From: Acetobacteraceae bacterium | Lineage (GTDB): Bacteria > Pseudomonadota > Alphaproteobacteria > Acetobacterales > Acetobacteraceae | DNA length: 64,000 nucleotides | NCBI GenBank assembly: GCA_947455205.1 | Contig: CANGNF010000014.1 | Span: 1 to 64,000 of the forward strand | Reading direction: 5' to 3' | Shown here: positions 38,018-47,187 of the stretch, one piece after another | How the letters are laid out: each line of letters begins with the position of its first letter | Position numbering within the stretch: the first letter of the stretch is position 1 | Notes under the pieces: generated by a model | What the model was told of the DNA's origin: nothing | Database searches by the model: none | Seen by the model: the letters and a program-made list of their open reading frames with translations, nothing else | Made by a program: the position numbers and the translations under genes

Positions 38018-38069
38018 TGATGCCGGCGCGGCTTGCCCTGGCTTGAAGGCCAAGGCAGGTTCGCGCCGC

Positions 38070-38609
38070 ATGCTTGCCCTCGCCCGTCGTCATTCCACGC
38101 TGCTTGCGCTGTCCGCCATCACGCTGGTGGCGGTGGTGCTGGTGCGCGTGCTGAAGGGGCCGGACGCCGTGGCGCATGCCTGGGGCGGGTCGGTCGATCT
38201 CGTCATCGGCATATTGCCGTCCATGCTGATGGGCATGCTGATGGCCGGCTCCCTCCGGCAGCTGGTGCCCACGGGCGCGCTGGCCAAGTGGATGGGGGCG
38301 GAGAGCGGGTGGAAGGGCCTGGTCATCGCCTCGGCGGTCGGGATCGCCACGCCGGGCGGGCCGATGGCCGCCTTCCCCATGGTGCTGGTGCTGAGTGGCG
38401 CCGGGGCTGACATCGGCTGCGTCATCAGCTTCATCGTTTGCTGGGGGCTGAACGGGTTCAACCGGATCCTGGTGTGGGAAGTGCCGCTGCTGGGGCCGGA
38501 TTTCGCGCTGCTGCGCTTCCTCTCGGGCCTGCCGATGGGGTTCATCGCTGGCTGGATCTCTCGCCGGGTGCCGCTGCGCTGGGCGCCGCCGGAGAGCCTG
38601 CCGCGATGA
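38070..38609 (+). CDS. Permease-like membrane protein, half-size, paralogue 1
   Basis: Multiple TM; GILPSMLMGMLMAGSLRQLVPTGALAKWMGAESGWKGLVIASAVGIATPGGPMAAFPMVL. Confidence 0.8.
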   Translation: MLALARRHSTLLALSAITLVAVVLVRVLKGPDAVAHAWGGSVDLVIGILPSMLMGMLMAGSLRQLVPTGALAKWMGAESGWKGLVIASAVGIATPGGPMAAFPMVLVLSGAGADIGCVISFIVCWGLNGFNRILVWEVPLLGPDFALLRFLSGLPMGFIAGWISRRVPLRWAPPESLPR

Positions 38610-39121
38610 CCGGGCGCCTGATCCTGGCGGCGCTGGCGCTGCTGTGCTTCGGCCTGGCGCTGCGCAAGGGCCGGCCGGCGGGGCTGCGGGCATTGCGGGA
38701 AACCAGGGACAACCTGGTGCGCATCATGCCGATGATGCTGGTGGCGATGCCGATGGCGACCTTTCTGGCGGAGCTGGTGCCGGCGGATGTGGCCAGCGGC
38801 TGGCTGGGGCCGGAGAGCGGGCTGACCGGGCTGGTGGTGGCCAGCTTCGCCGGCGGGCTGATCCCGGGCGGGCCTTATGCGAGTTTTCCGCTGGTGCTGA
38901 CCTTTTTGAAGGCCGGGGCGGGGCCGGCGCAGATGGTGGCGCTGATCACCGGCTGGGCGGTGCTGGCGTTCCACCGCGTGGTGATGTGGGAAATCCCGGT
39001 GCTGGGGGCGCGGTTCGCGGTGGTGCGGACCATCTCCTCATTGGCGCTGCCGCTGCTGGCGGGGCTGATCGCGGAGGCGCTGATGCCGCTGTTCCCGCAT
39101 CTGCTGGCGGGGATGCGATGA
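38606..39121 (+). CDS. Permease-like membrane protein, half-size, paralogue 2
   Basis: RIMPMMLVAMPMATFLAELVPADVASGWLGPESGLTGLVVASFAGGLIPGGPYASFPLVL; start overlaps the preceding stop. Confidence 0.8.
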   Translation: MTGRLILAALALLCFGLALRKGRPAGLRALRETRDNLVRIMPMMLVAMPMATFLAELVPADVASGWLGPESGLTGLVVASFAGGLIPGGPYASFPLVLTFLKAGAGPAQMVALITGWAVLAFHRVVMWEIPVLGARFAVVRTISSLALPLLAGLIAEALMPLFPHLLAGMR

Positions 39122-40026
39122 GCGTCGCGCCGACAGGCGCGCGGCCTCAGGGCACGCCGACAGGCGCGCGGGCTCAGGGCGCACCCGCGGATGGTGCCGA
39201 GTGGGACGCCGCGCTGGCGCTGCGGGCTGGCGGGCCGGTGCCGGCGGGCGGGATGGGCCGGCTGTTCGGGCCGTTGTTCGCGCCGCCGCGCGGGGCGGAT
39301 GGCTGCGTGGTGGTCGGGCGGCTGGCGCAGACGCTGGACGGGCGGATCGCCACGGTTTCCGGCAGCAGCCAGTGGATCGGCGGGCCGGGCGATATCCTGC
39401 ACACGCATCGGCTGCGGGCGCTGTGCGACGCGGTGCTGGTGGGCGCCGGCACGGTGCGGGCGGACAACCCGCGGCTGACCACACGGGAATGCGCCGGGCC
39501 AAGCCCGACCAGGGTGGTGCTGGACCCGTCCTGGCGGTTGGCGGCGACCTACGGGATCTTCGCCGAGGGACCGCCGACCCTGCTGGTGGTGGCGGAAGAC
39601 GCGCCGGCACCGGGGCCGGGGCCTGGGCCGCACGGTGCCGCTGCCGAGCGCCATGGCGCCGCGCGCGAGCGCCATGGCGCCGCTCGCGAGCGCCACGGCG
39701 CCGCGGAGGTGGTGCGGGTGCCGCGGGCCGGCGATGGGCTGGACCTTTCGGCGGTGCTGGCCATGTTGGCGGGGCGCGGGTTGCGGCGGGTCTTCGTGGA
39801 AGGTGGCGGGGTGACGGTGTCGCGGTTTCTGGCGGCGGGCTGCCTGGACCGGCTGCATGTGACGGTGGCGCCGGTGCTGCTGGGCAGCGGCATCCCCGCC
39901 TTCACCCTGCCGGAAGCGGCGCGGATAGCCGATGGGCTGCGGTTTTCCTGGGCGGTGCATGAGATCAGCCCGGATGTGCTGCTGGACATTGCGCTGGACC
40001 GCGCCAGGCCGGGGGTTTGCGCATGA
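39118..40026 (+). CDS. RibD C-terminal-domain (pyrimidine/dihydrofolate reductase-like) protein
   Basis: VVVGRLAQTLDGRIATVSGSSQWIGGPGDILHTHRLRALCDAVLVGAGTVRADNPRLTTR; VFVEGGGVTVSRFLAAGCLDRLHVTVAPVLLGSGIPAF. Confidence 0.9.
   Translation: MSVAPTGARPQGTPTGARAQGAPADGAEWDAALALRAGGPVPAGGMGRLFGPLFAPPRGADGCVVVGRLAQTLDGRIATVSGSSQWIGGPGDILHTHRLRALCDAVLVGAGTVRADNPRLTTRECAGPSPTRVVLDPSWRLAATYGIFAEGPPTLLVVAEDAPAPGPGPGPHGAAAERHGAARERHGAARERHGAAEVVRVPRAGDGLDLSAVLAMLAGRGLRRVFVEGGGVTVSRFLAAGCLDRLHVTVAPVLLGSGIPAFTLPEAARIADGLRFSWAVHEISPDVLLDIALDRARPGVCA
39128..39180 (+). repeat. Two direct copies of a 27-bp-period repeat in the RibD-like N-terminus
   Basis: cgccgacaggcgcgcgg(c/g)ctcagggc twice, period 27; encodes PTGAR(P/A)QG(T/A). 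Confidence 0.85.
39646..39708 (+). repeat. Three in-frame copies of a 21-bp repeat
   Basis: gagcgccatggcgccgcgcgc-type unit x3; encodes ERHGAAR-ERHGAAR-ERHGAAE. Confidence 0.88.
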
Positions 40027-40135: not shown

Positions 40136-41077
40136 ATGAGGGCACTCTGGTACGTCGCGCCCGGCGTGGCGGAGCTGCGCTCTGAGCCGCCGCGCGCGCC
40201 AGGGCCGGATGAGTGCCTGGTGCGGACGCTGTACAGCGGCATCTCGCGCGGGACGGAACGCCTGGTGCTGGCCGGCCGGGTGCCGGAAAGCCAATGGCCG
40301 GTGATGCGCGCGCCGCTGATGGCGGGCGAATTCCCCTTTCCCGTGAAGTACGGCTACAGCCTGGTGGGCACCCGGGCGGATGGCCAGCGGGTGTTCTGCC
40401 TGCATCCGCACCAGGACATCTGCGTGGCGCCGGAAGCGATGTGCGTGCCGGTGCCGGACCACGTGCCCAGCCGCCGCGCCGTGCTGGCGGCCAACATGGA
40501 AACCGCCGTCAACATCATGTGGGACGCGGCGCCCCTGGTGGGGGAACGCGTGCTGGTGGTGGGCGCCGGGGTGGTCGGGCTGCTCAGCGCCTTCCTGCTG
40601 GCCAGGCTGCCGGGGGTGGAGGTGGCGGTCTGCGACGTGGATGCCTCCCGCGCCGAGCTGGTGGAGAGCTTTGGCGCGCGGTTCGTGCTGCCTGAGGATG
40701 CGCCCGGCGAGCGGGATCTGGTGGTGCATGCCAGTGCCTCCCAGGCCGGGCTGCGGCTGGCGCTGCGGAGCTGCGGGTTCGAGGCGCGGATCGTCGAGGC
40801 CAGCTGGTATGGCGATGCCGAGGTCTCGCTGCCGCTGGGCGAGGGCTTCCATGCCAAGCGGTTGAGGCTGGTCTCCACCCAGGTGGGCGCGGTGGCGCCG
40901 GTGATGCGCGGGCGGCGCACGCATGGGCAGCGCCTTGGTCTTGCCCTCGGCTTGCTGGATGATGCGCGGCTGGATGCGCTGCTGGGTCCGGAGGTGGCGT
41001 TCGACGCGCTGCCCAGCGCCCTGCCCGCGCTGCTGGCGCCCGGCGCGCCCGGGCTGTGCCCGGTTGTTGCCTACTGA
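40136..41077 (+). CDS. Zinc-binding alcohol dehydrogenase-like (MDR) oxidoreductase
   Basis: YSGISRGTERLVLAGRVPESQWPVMRAPLMAGEFPFPVKYGYSLVG; VGERVLVVGAGVVGLLSAFLLA. Confidence 0.88.
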   Translation: MRALWYVAPGVAELRSEPPRAPGPDECLVRTLYSGISRGTERLVLAGRVPESQWPVMRAPLMAGEFPFPVKYGYSLVGTRADGQRVFCLHPHQDICVAPEAMCVPVPDHVPSRRAVLAANMETAVNIMWDAAPLVGERVLVVGAGVVGLLSAFLLARLPGVEVAVCDVDASRAELVESFGARFVLPEDAPGERDLVVHASASQAGLRLALRSCGFEARIVEASWYGDAEVSLPLGEGFHAKRLRLVSTQVGAVAPVMRGRRTHGQRLGLALGLLDDARLDALLGPEVAFDALPSALPALLAPGAPGLCPVVAY

Positions 41078-41118: not shown

Positions 41119-41517
41119 ATGTTCAGCCTGACCGTCAGCGACCACATCATGATCGCGCACAGCTTCCGCGGCGAGGAATTCGGCCCGGCGCAGAAGCTGC
41201 ACGGCGCCACCTTCGTGGTGGAGGCGGAGTTTCGCGCCGTGGATATCGACGGGCTGGGGCTGCTGGTGGATATCGGGCTGGCGAAGCAGGAGCTGGGCGT
41301 GGTGCTGGGGGCGCTGAACTACCAGAACCTGGACGCCATGCCGGAGCATGCGGGGAAGAACACCACCACGGAGTACCTGTGCCGGTTCATCCACCAGCAG
41401 CTGGCGGCCAGCGTGAAGGCGGGCAAGCTGGGCAACCAGGGCGTGGGCGTGACGGGGTTGAAGGTGACGCTGCGGGAAAGCCCGAATGCCTGGGCGAGCT
41501 TCGAGGGCGACGTTTAA
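41119..41517 (+). CDS. 6-pyruvoyl-tetrahydropterin synthase/QueD-fold protein with altered active site
   Basis: [85 protein letters not shown]. Confidence 0.85.
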
Positions 41518-41520
41518 TCA

Positions 41521-42656
41521 TGCCGCCGGATGGTCGCAGCGCCGCCCTGCCCCATGAAGCATCGCTTCATGGGGACCCCGAGGGCACGCGCGGAGAGCTG
41601 AATCCGTCGGCCAAACTCAACATCGCGCTGCTGGTGCCGGGGCCGTTCGACGCTGTCTCCGGCGGGTATATCTACGACCGGCGGCTGGTGCAGGGGCTGC
41701 GGGCGCTGGGGCATCAGGTTGAGGTGGTGGAACTGGCGGGACGGCACCCGCTGGCCGACGAGGCCGCCGAGGCAAGCGCGCGGGCGGCGCTGGCGCGGCT
41801 GCCGATGACGACGCGGGTGGTGATCGACGGGCTGGGGCTGCCGGCCTTCGCCGGGCTGGCGCGGGAGCTGGTGGTGCGCCGCGCGGTCGGGCTGATCCAT
41901 CACCCGACGGCGCTGGAGCCGGGCTTCTCGGTGGAGGACCAGGCGCGGCTGCGGAGCACCGAGGGGCTGCTGTTCGGCGCGCTGGCGCGGCTGGTGGTGA
42001 CGCATCGCTTCACCGCGGAGCGCCTGGTGGCGCAGTTCGGCGTGGAGGCCGGGCGCGTCGGCGTGGTAGAGCCGGGGACGGATGCGGCTTCGCGCGCGAC
42101 GGGCAGCGGTGGCCCGGGCGTGGCGGTGCTGAGCGTGGGCGCGGTGGTGCCGCGCAAGGGGCACGACGTGCTGCTGCGGGCGCTGGCCGGGGTGGCGGAT
42201 GTGGAGTGGTCGCTGACCATTGCCGGCGGCGAACGCGACCCGGTGCATGCCCACGGCCTGCGGGCGCTGGCCGAGGAGTTGGGCGTGGCGCAGCGCGTCA
42301 CCTTCGCCGGGGAGGTCAGCGACGCGGCGCTGGAGGCGCTGTATGCCCGCAGCGACCTGTTCGCGCTGGCGACGCATTGGGAAGGCTACGGCATGGCCGC
42401 GGCCGAGGCGCTGGCGCGCGGCCTGCCGGTGGCGGTGACGGCCGGCGGCGCGATCGCCGAGGTGGTGCCGCTGGAGGCGGGCATCGTCTCGCCGCCCGGG
42501 GATGTGGTGAGTTTCACCAAGGGGCTGCGGCGGGTGCTGTTCGATACCGGGCTGCGCGCCGCCATGGCGGATGCGGCCTGGGCGGCGGGGCAGCAGCTGC
42601 CGCGCTGGGAAGACCGCGCGGCGCTGTTTGCCGCTGAGCTGGAGCGCGTGGCGTGA
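41521..42656 (+). CDS. Glycosyltransferase family 4 protein (start uncertain, 5' codons overlap a repeat)
   Basis: GGYIYDRRLVQGLRALGHQVEVVEL; YARSDLFALATHWEGYGMAAAEALARGLPVAVTAGGAIAEVV. Confidence 0.9.
41550..41574. repeat. Inverted repeat CCCCATGAAGC-ATC-GCTTCATGGGG
   Basis: Perfect 11-bp arms, 3-nt loop, inside the 5' end of the GT4 ORF. Confidence 0.8.
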
Positions 42657-43591
42657 GCGAGGAATTCGAGCTCGATTGGCTGGACCTGCGGGAGCCGCAT
42701 GACGCGGCGGCGCGGAGCGAGGCACTGGCCGAGGCGCTGATCGCCCGGCTGCCGGCGCGGCCGCGGCTGATGGATCTGGGCGCCGGCACAGGCAGCCTGT
42801 TCCGCTGGCTGGCACCGCGCATCGGCCGGGCGCAGGCCTGGACCCTGGTGGACCAGAACCGCGAGATGACCGAGGCGGCCTTCGACACCATTGCCGACCG
42901 GGCCGAGCAGGTGGGGCTGAAGGTGACCTTCCCCAACCGCCGCACGCTGCTGGTGCACGCGCCGGGCGGCGCCTGGCGGGTGGAGGCGCTGATTGCCGAC
43001 CTGGCGCATGCGCCGGACAACCTGCCGCTGCAGAATGCCGATGCGGTGGTGTGCAGCGCGCTGTGCGACCTGGTTTCGGCGCCCTGGCTGGCGCGGATGG
43101 CGGCGGCGATCCGGGTGCCGTTCTATGCCGGGCTGAACGTGGACGGGCGCGACCGCTTCCTGCCGCCGGTGCCGGGGGATGCGCTGGTGGCGCGCGGCTT
43201 TGCCCGCGACCAGGGGCGGGACAAGGGGTTCGGCGGCCGGGCGCTGGGGGCCAAGGCGGCGGCCGAGATCGCCCGTGCCTTCGGCGCGCAGGGCTACCAG
43301 GTGCAGGCGGCGGCGAGCGACTGGGTGCTGCGCGGCGGTCCCGCGACATCCCTGCTGAGCGAGCTGGTGTTCGGCCATGCCGAGGCGGCGATCGCGCAGG
43401 ACTTCCGCCATGCCGCGCAGATCTCGGCGTGGCGGGAGCGGCGGTTGCAGCAGGGCAGCCTGGGGCGGCTGCAGGCGCGGATCGGGCACCGGGACGTGCT
43501 GGCGCTGCCGCCGGAGGCGGGATGGCCGGCGGCGGCGCCGGTGCCGGCGCGGGCGGCGATGGCGCCGGCCCTGCCGCGTCGGCGACGCTGA
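42653..43591 (+). CDS. Class I SAM-dependent methyltransferase
   Basis: RLMDLGAGTGSLFRWLAPRIGRAQAWTLVDQN; start overlaps the GT4 stop codon. Confidence 0.88.
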   Translation: MSEEFELDWLDLREPHDAAARSEALAEALIARLPARPRLMDLGAGTGSLFRWLAPRIGRAQAWTLVDQNREMTEAAFDTIADRAEQVGLKVTFPNRRTLLVHAPGGAWRVEALIADLAHAPDNLPLQNADAVVCSALCDLVSAPWLARMAAAIRVPFYAGLNVDGRDRFLPPVPGDALVARGFARDQGRDKGFGGRALGAKAAAEIARAFGAQGYQVQAAASDWVLRGGPATSLLSELVFGHAEAAIAQDFRHAAQISAWRERRLQQGSLGRLQARIGHRDVLALPPEAGWPAAAPVPARAAMAPALPRRRR

Positions 43592-45112: not shown

Positions 45113-45182
45113 TAAAAGGTACGGGACGCCGCTTTAGCGGCTGCGCGCTGCGACTGCCTGCGCGGGAATGAGGGAGAGAGTG

Positions 45183-46439
45183 ATGCCGGTGCTGTTGGGC
45201 TGCATAGCCGATGATTTCACGGGCGCGACCGACCTGGCGAATACGCTGGTGAAGGGCGGCATGACCGCGGTGCAGGTCATCGGGGTGCCGGAAGGCCCGC
45301 TGCCGGACGCCGATGTGGTGATCGTGGCGCTGAAGAGCCGCACCGCGCCGGTGGGCGTGGCGGTGGGGGAGAGCCTGGCGGCCGCCGAGGCGCTGCTGAA
45401 GGCGGGCGCGCGGCAGTTGTTCTTCAAGTACTGCTCGACCTTCGATAGCACGGAGGCGGGGAATATCGGGCCGGTGGCGGATGCGCTGGTACAGCGGTTG
45501 GGCTGCGGCTTCGCGCTGGCCAACCCGGCGTTTCCGACCAATGGGCGCACCGTGTACCAGGGGCACCTGTTCGTCGGCGGCATGCTGCTGAACGAGAGCG
45601 GGATGGAGAACCATCCGCTGACGCCGATGAAGGACGCCAACCTGGTGCGGGTGCTGTCGCGCCAGACGGATGGCACGGTGGGGCTGGTGCCCTTCGTCAC
45701 CGTGGAGCAGGGCGCCCAGGCGATCCGCAAGGCGCTGACGGTGCTGAAGGAGAGCGGGCGGCGCTACGCCATTGTGGATGCGGTGACCGACGCGCACCTG
45801 GTGGCGATTGGCGAGGCGGCGAGCGAGCATGCGCTGATCACCGGCGGCAGCGGCATTGCCATGGGGCTGCCGGCGAATTTCCGCGCCAAGGGGCTACTGC
45901 CGGAGCGCGGCGACAGCGCCGCCGAGTTGCCGCCGATGGTCGGGCATGCGGCGGTGCTGGCGGGGAGTTGCTCTCGCGCGACGCTGGGGCAGATCGGCTT
46001 TGCGCGCGACCATATCCCGACGCTGGAGCTGGATGCGCTGGCGACGCCGGATGCCGGGGCGCTGGCGGCGCAGGCGATGGCCTGGCTGGAGGGCAAGCTG
46101 GGCGCCTCCCCGGTGCTGGTGGCGGCGAGTGCCCCGCCGGACAAGGTGGCGGCGTTGCAGGCCAGGCTGGGGCGCGATGCCGCAGGCGCGCTGGTGGAGC
46201 ACGCGCTGGCCGAGGTGGCGGAGTACATGGTGCGCCAGGGCGTGAAGCGGCTGGTGGTGGCGGGGGGTGAGACCTCCGGCGCTGTCGTCTCGCGCCTTGG
46301 GGTGACGAGCCTCAGGATCGGGCGGGAGATCGACCCCGGGGTGCCGTGGACCTACGCGGAACCAGCGGGCCTGCACCTGGCGCTGAAGAGCGGCAATTTC
46401 GGCACGCGGGACTTCTTCCTGAAGGCGTTCGAGCAGTGA
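45183..46439 (+). CDS. otnK: Four-carbon acid sugar kinase family, 3-oxo-tetronate kinase
   Basis: MPVLLGCIADDFTGATDLANTLVKGGM; FFKYCSTFDSTEAGNIGPVADAL; VLAGSCSRATLGQI; VAGGETSGAVVSRLGV. Confidence 0.92.
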   Translation: MPVLLGCIADDFTGATDLANTLVKGGMTAVQVIGVPEGPLPDADVVIVALKSRTAPVGVAVGESLAAAEALLKAGARQLFFKYCSTFDSTEAGNIGPVADALVQRLGCGFALANPAFPTNGRTVYQGHLFVGGMLLNESGMENHPLTPMKDANLVRVLSRQTDGTVGLVPFVTVEQGAQAIRKALTVLKESGRRYAIVDAVTDAHLVAIGEAASEHALITGGSGIAMGLPANFRAKGLLPERGDSAAELPPMVGHAAVLAGSCSRATLGQIGFARDHIPTLELDALATPDAGALAAQAMAWLEGKLGASPVLVAASAPPDKVAALQARLGRDAAGALVEHALAEVAEYMVRQGVKRLVVAGGETSGAVVSRLGVTSLRIGREIDPGVPWTYAEPAGLHLALKSGNFGTRDFFLKAFEQ

Positions 46440-46440
46440 G

Positions 46441-46554
46441 CCCCGATGGTCGGAGCGCCGCAGGGCGCGGAGAGCTAAATCGGATGGCCCAGCCGGCCCC
46501 CGATGACCGCAGGGGCGAAGGCCCCGAAGGTCTGAATCGGGCGGCCCAGCCATG
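46441..46554. repeat. Intergenic repeat block with two related sub-copies, related to 41530-41615
   Basis: cccgatggtcggagcgccgcagggcgcggagagctaaatcggatggcccagccg followed by cccgatgaccgcaggggcgaaggccccgaaggtctgaatcgggcggcccagcc. Confidence 0.6.
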
Positions 46555-47187
46555 AGCGAGGAGGCGCGGCTGCGCGAAAGGCTGGCGGAGCATGGCGCTT
46601 CGCTGTTCGCGCGCGGGTATTCCGTGGGCAGTGCCGGCAATATCTCGGTGCGGCTGGAGGACGGGTTCCTGATGACCCCGACCAACTCCTGCCTCGGGCG
46701 GCTGGACCCGGCGCGGATCTCCAAGCTCGACCGGCAGTACCGGCATATCGGCGGCGACAAGCCTTCCAAGGAGGTGTTCATGCATCGCGCCTTCCTGGAC
46801 ACCAGGCCGGAAGCGGGCGCGGTGGTGCACCTGCATTCGACGCAGGCGACCGCCATTGCCTGCCTGGCCGCGCCGGGCGAGGACGCGCCGATCCCGCCGC
46901 TGACGCCCTACTTCGTCATGCGCGTCGGCCGGCGGCTGCCGGTGGTGAAGTACTACCGCCCCGGCGACGCGGCGATGGAGCCGGCGATTGCCGAGGCGGC
47001 GCGCGATGCGCGGGCGGTGCTGCTGGCGAACCATGGGCCGGTTGTCTCCGGCAGGACCTTGGACGATGCCGTTTATGCCGCCGAGGAGCTGGAGGAAGCC
47101 GCCAAGCTGGCGCTGATGCTGCGCGGCCAACCGGCGCGGCTGCTGACGCCGGCGGAGATCGACGACCTGCTGGGGACTTTCGGATGA
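46552..47187 (+). CDS. otnC: Class II aldolase, 3-oxo-tetronate 4-phosphate decarboxylase
   Basis: GASLFARGYSVGSAGNISVRLEDGFLMTPTNSCLGRLDPARISKLD; VVHLHSTQATAIA; LANHGPVVSG. Confidence 0.92.
   Translation: MSEEARLRERLAEHGASLFARGYSVGSAGNISVRLEDGFLMTPTNSCLGRLDPARISKLDRQYRHIGGDKPSKEVFMHRAFLDTRPEAGAVVHLHSTQATAIACLAAPGEDAPIPPLTPYFVMRVGRRLPVVKYYRPGDAAMEPAIAEAARDARAVLLANHGPVVSGRTLDDAVYAAEELEEAAKLALMLRGQPARLLTPAEIDDLLGTFG

Follow-up and report, generated by a model that had tools for sequence, protein, structure and literature searches.

A T-fold protein of the SCO6650 family in a conserved operon of an Acetobacteraceae bacterium

The locus and its gene order

The window considered here is a 64,000-nucleotide stretch of an Acetobacteraceae genome that carries, all on the + strand and in this order, genes for a RibD_C reductase, an MDR/ADH-like oxidoreductase, a T-fold protein, a GT4 glycosyltransferase, and a methyltransferase. 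The T-fold gene (41119 to 41517) encodes a 132-amino-acid protein of the SCO6650 family, predicted to be zinc free, with the signature MIAHS, FGPAQ-LHGAT, DIG, NLD, TE, and ES; the open reading frame, its coordinates, and the motifs quoted in the initial annotation of this DNA proved exact on rechecking. Upstream are the RibD_C-type pyrimidine reductase (39118 to 40026), in which a repetitive insert of RHGAARE-type repeats splits the domain match, and the MDR-family, ADH-like oxidoreductase (40136 to 41077), which scores best against a BchC-like NCBIfam model, under the cutoff, and reads SRGTE at the place where zinc ADHs usually carry a Cys motif. The GT4-family glycosyltransferase gene (41520 to 42656) directly follows the T-fold gene, and its stop is overlapped by the gene for a class I SAM-dependent methyltransferase (42653 to 43591); structural comparison of the GT4 protein gave no telling relative. 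Just upstream of these genes, a pair of half-size ArsP_1-type permeases (38043 to 39121) may serve this lineage as an accessory transporter.

Neighbors were counted with HMMs built from the loci and run over 81 loci, namely, the window and its 80 best-match loci, many of them from Roseomonas-like bacteria, toward which the counts are therefore weighted. The ADH-like gene directly precedes the T-fold gene in 80 of the 81 loci, GT4 lies directly downstream in 77, the methyltransferase is present in 73, and all four of these core genes occur in order in 71. RibD_C was found in 58 loci and was not detected in the examined flanks of the other 23, where some contigs are short; the permease pair recurs in 17. 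Other neighbors are a CDP-alcohol phosphatidyltransferase (34 loci), a flippase-like LPG_synthase_TM protein (31), a creatininase (23), and GTP cyclohydrolase II, or GCHII (22). Among loci from the sample of the same class, ADH, T-fold, and GT4 genes stand together in 28 of 29, and the remaining locus is truncated where its contig ends. The most divergent relatives (loci L138 and L139; 38 to 40% identity) come from alphaproteobacterial genomes of 1.4 to 1.6 Mb with 26 to 27% GC, and in both the creatininase, ADH, T-fold, GT4, methyltransferase, RibD_C, and GCHII genes are contiguous. Retention of a full seven-gene operon in such small, AT-rich genomes suggests that the pathway is worth keeping even there. 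Annotated copies with the same core were found in Methylosinus, Thiodictyon, Microbacterium, Streptomyces, and Agrobacterium. The literature searched contained no account of the operon, which may have been published elsewhere.

Several features of the surroundings differ among lineages. The GCHII and creatininase homologues of the window genome are on contigs other than that of the operon, and no homologue of the flippase-like protein was found in this genome by a search run without a positive control. Because CDP-alcohol transferase and flippase-like genes, frequent neighbors in other lineages, do not adjoin the window operon, linkage of the product to a lipid can at most be proposed for particular lineages. 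Cytochrome b561-type genes adjoin the operon in the Thiodictyon and Agrobacterium plasmids (L147, 9528 to 10085; L150, 10011 to 10544), a hint of a redox-active product. Downstream in the window, between 44156 and 47187, open reading frames judged by eye resemble RidA, a cupin, a DUF1537/four-carbon acid sugar kinase (45168 to 46439), and a class II aldolase (46552 to 47187); the kinase-like and aldolase-like frames are found again beyond the operon's downstream end in many acetobacterial loci and probably form a separate sugar-acid cluster.

Fold, family, and active-site residues of the T-fold protein

The initial annotation had assigned the protein a PTPS/QueD fold, and this is borne out by both profile and structure. 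Pfam PTPS (PF01242) is matched at 3.2e-21 and 76 bits (cutoff, 22.4), and an AlphaFold2 model (pLDDT, 96.6) superposed with Foldseek reaches a TM score of 0.96 to Protein Data Bank (PDB) entry 3d7j and 0.76 to E. coli QueD; other PTPS structures also match, and matches to GTP cyclohydrolase I (GCHI) are weak. The protein scores far under the cutoffs of the NCBIfam models for QueD (33.7 bits versus 89.25) and 6PTHBS (23.8 bits versus 125.5). Its closest solved relative is SCO6650 of Streptomyces coelicolor (3d7j; E value, 1.5e-45; 61% identity), which, in the 2008 structural work of Spoonamore, Roberts, Heroux, and Bandarian, reportedly lacks zinc, the catalytic triad, and PTPS activity and retains a pterin-like pocket. 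Gene fusions involving the T-fold protein and relatives of it in phages were sought, and none were found.

A scan of a genome collection returned at least 590 relatives from several phyla, and the best 80 of these include members from Alpha-, Beta-, and Gammaproteobacteria, Actinomycetota, Gemmatimonadota, and Acidobacteriota. Sampling 289 genomes of the same class turned up relatives in 36. A phylum-level sample of 299 gave 23 matches, of which 19 are true members, clearly apart in score; the four weakest (approximately 1e-16) look canonical, with Cys and HGH, and were left out.

We aligned a profile of relatives to the crystal sequences of E. coli QueD (4ntk), C. elegans PTPS, and human PTPS, which sets LHGA over LHGH and LNYQNLD over LDHHYLN. 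In the window protein, Ala24 replaces the catalytic Cys, Tyr68 the catalytic His, Asn67 the catalytic Asp, and Ala30 the third zinc His; the zinc-type His14 and His28 and the likely pterin-contact residues Glu85 and Glu120 are retained. Thus, of the residues that mark QueD and PTPS, one of the three zinc His and the catalytic Cys and Asp-His are missing, and the protein instead carries the marks of the SCO6650 family: HGA for HGH, Ala at the Cys site, and Tyr or Phe at the catalytic His. These marks recur with little variation among 110 aligned relatives, with A24 in 109, A30 in all, and Y68 in 102 (another 7 have F, so that Tyr or Phe occupies the site in 109). His14, His28, Ala30, Thr31, Asp51, Glu85, and Glu120 are found in 110 of 110; at position 67, 50 relatives have N and 48 have D. 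Among 47 divergent T-fold sequences, 23 positions are invariant and length is near constant.

This alignment to crystal sequences reproduces the mapping onto QueD drawn in the initial annotation. The claimed losses of the Cys, the Asp-His pair, and one zinc His hold for the window protein. Profile and fold comparisons both put the substitutions at the canonical sites, with no catalytic equivalents elsewhere in the fold. Loss of the Asp does not extend to the whole family: Asp stands at position 67 in nearly half of it, which makes Asn67 the exception among otherwise family-wide substitutions. In the aligned sequences, it is the missing Cys, His, and third zinc His that define the SCO6650 family, and loss of the Asp is particular to part of it. 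The kept pair of His, the Asp, and the two Glu residues form a conserved alternative site and do not reflect decay, given that the substitutions are family wide and conserved. In PTPS, the equivalent Glu residues, including that of the TTE segment, contact pterin, and by analogy Glu85 and Glu120 may do so here.

Proposed chemistry and competing readings

The neighboring enzymes point to a substrate class. A RibD_C orthologue from another genome is closest to archaeal-type 2,5-diamino-6-ribosylamino-4(3H)-pyrimidinone 5'-phosphate reductases (6p8c; also 2azn), at 2e-25 versus 5e-5 to Mycobacterium Rv2671. In GCHII, the site of E. coli RibA Tyr105 is Met in Streptomyces-type loci and mostly His in Actinomadura/Pseudonocardia-type loci; SCO6655, with Met at this site, goes no further than the formamido product. 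All 18 loci whose GCHII has Met or His also contain a creatininase, as do 3 of the 8 whose GCHII has Tyr (Fisher P = 8.5e-4, from lineages that are not independent). The three Tyr-GCHII loci with an adjoining creatininase weaken the formamide link, as well as the use of Met or His in GCHII as a strict marker of creatininase loci. GCHII, creatininase, and reductase converge on a 2-amino-4-oxo diaminopyrimidine, so the T-fold protein would be placed on that intermediate or on a pterin derived from it; PTPS-fold proteins recognize the 2-amino-4-oxo edge.

We propose that GTP cyclohydrolase II would open GTP, in some lineages to a 5-formamido intermediate that a creatininase-family formamidase would deformylate, and that the RibD_C reductase would reduce 2,5-diamino-6-ribosylaminopyrimidinone phosphate. 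The T-fold protein may then bind the 2-amino-4-oxo-pyrimidine, or else a pterin derived from that compound, via Glu85 and Glu120 and perform or guide a metal-independent step before glycosylation and methylation, with the ADH-like protein, GT4, and methyltransferase predicted to oxidize or reduce, glycosylate, and methylate the product of that step. We infer the substrate class, step order, product, and catalysis from gene content and homology, and the order of steps is guesswork; the operon probably makes a pterin-like compound. We put at about two in three the probability of our main reading, that the window protein belongs to the PTPS/QueD T-fold superfamily as a zinc-free protein of the SCO6650 family, stands at the core of a conserved biosynthetic operon, and acts on a diaminopyrimidine or pterin derived from GTP. 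A broader proposal is more tentative, namely, that there is a widespread, undescribed pathway from GTP to a pyrimidine or pterin bearing glycosyl and methyl groups, in which the zinc-free T-fold protein catalyzes a new metal-independent step. Its product is perhaps membrane linked in many lineages, as the CDP-alcohol transferase, the flippase-like protein, and sometimes cytochrome b561 would suggest.

The initial annotation had offered diverged chemistry or a noncatalytic scaffold, and of this the loss of catalytic residues stands. The implied single divergent protein gives way to a widespread, structurally solved family, and an active role on a pterin or pyrimidine substrate is favored because of the invariant pocket residues and the nearly fixed biosynthetic operon. 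A T-fold scaffold or carrier that holds a labile diaminopyrimidine or pterin and hands it between reductase, GT4, and methyltransferase is a minority possibility: replacement of the catalytic Cys, His, and third zinc His in essentially all relatives would fit it, and the near-fixed neighbors suggest partner contacts, but His14, His28, Asp51, Thr84/Glu85, and Glu120 show almost no variation in the pocket region, seemingly more constraint than a binder needs. We consider it unlikely that the T-fold protein rearranges and closes an unreduced diamino-ribosylaminopyrimidine to a dihydropterin, with RibD_C reducing the pterin and GT4 and the methyltransferase yielding a methylated pterin glycoside. 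GCHI, which rearranges and closes the ring within one enzyme, is itself a T-fold enzyme (the fold matches to it are weak), and cyanobacterial pterin glycosyltransferases are known, both of which speak for such a route; against it, the RibD_C orthologue is far nearer pyrimidinone reductases than Rv2671, and the T-fold protein lacks a zinc site for GCHI-like chemistry.

In public plasmid records, relatives of this protein carry the name "6-carboxytetrahydropterin synthase," in keeping with a QueD or PTPS that, for all its residue changes, would still serve the synthesis of queuosine, biopterin, or folate. We regard this as very improbable, because the window protein scores far under the QueD cutoff and its Cys, its catalytic His, and one zinc His are gone. 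Furthermore, the genome has its own PTPS-family gene with Cys and HGH (contig C9, 21888 to 22316) between queC-like and queE-like open reading frames, and no que or fol genes were seen in the operon. Because this canonical QueD gene is part of a queC-D-E cluster in the same genome, the queuosine role is filled elsewhere. The QueD on contig C9 is itself quite divergent and has no PDB sequence match by phmmer. The separate canonical QueD, together with the residue and score evidence, makes public QueD labels on such T-fold genes look wrong, and correcting them would prevent false queuosine predictions. Least credible of all is a decaying pseudoenzyme without function, for which the lost catalytic residues might speak, but which is at odds with the near-constant length, the invariant positions among divergent sequences, and the hundreds of genome loci in several phyla.

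Comparison with known systems

The window protein shares with E. coli QueD (4ntk) the T-fold, the first two zinc His positions, the T/S-E segment, and the C-terminal Glu, and differs from it, at 22% identity and under the NCBIfam QueD cutoff, in the absence of the catalytic Cys, the Asp-His pair, and the third zinc His. Likewise, it has the fold and TTE segment of eukaryotic PTPS (human, 1b66; C. elegans, 2g64) but neither the full zinc ligand set nor the Cys-Asp-His triad. Plasmodium PTPS, in which Glu replaces the active-site Cys, with new chemistry and with the HGH zinc ligands kept (PMC2229834), is a precedent for a PTPS-family protein with a replaced Cys; the window protein has Ala rather than Glu at that site and has lost a zinc His. 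With respect to the pathway, the creatininase-family enzyme BrbF was experimentally shown to deformylate the 5-formamido precursor to the diaminopyrimidinone phosphate (PMC9478397). A creatininase-family enzyme thus produces what a RibD-type reductase then uses, as we infer for the fuller operons; however, the BrbF route ends in riboflavin, whereas the operon adds T-fold, ADH-like, GT4, and methyltransferase genes.

The nearest parallel is SCO6650 itself, which shares the HGAT motif, the loss of the Cys, His, and third zinc His, and the fold (TM score, 0.96). The neighbors differ in part; for the actinobacterial relatives they include creatininase, GCHII, CDP-alcohol transferase, and flippase-like genes, and the window has ArsP-type permeases instead. 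The window protein repeats, in another organism, what the SCO6650 structure had shown, and it is a correct observation on a protein of an already known kind; the product of the operon is the wider question. An operon of up to seven or more genes, found from Streptomyces to small AT-rich alphaproteobacterial genomes, offers a direct handle on that metabolite.
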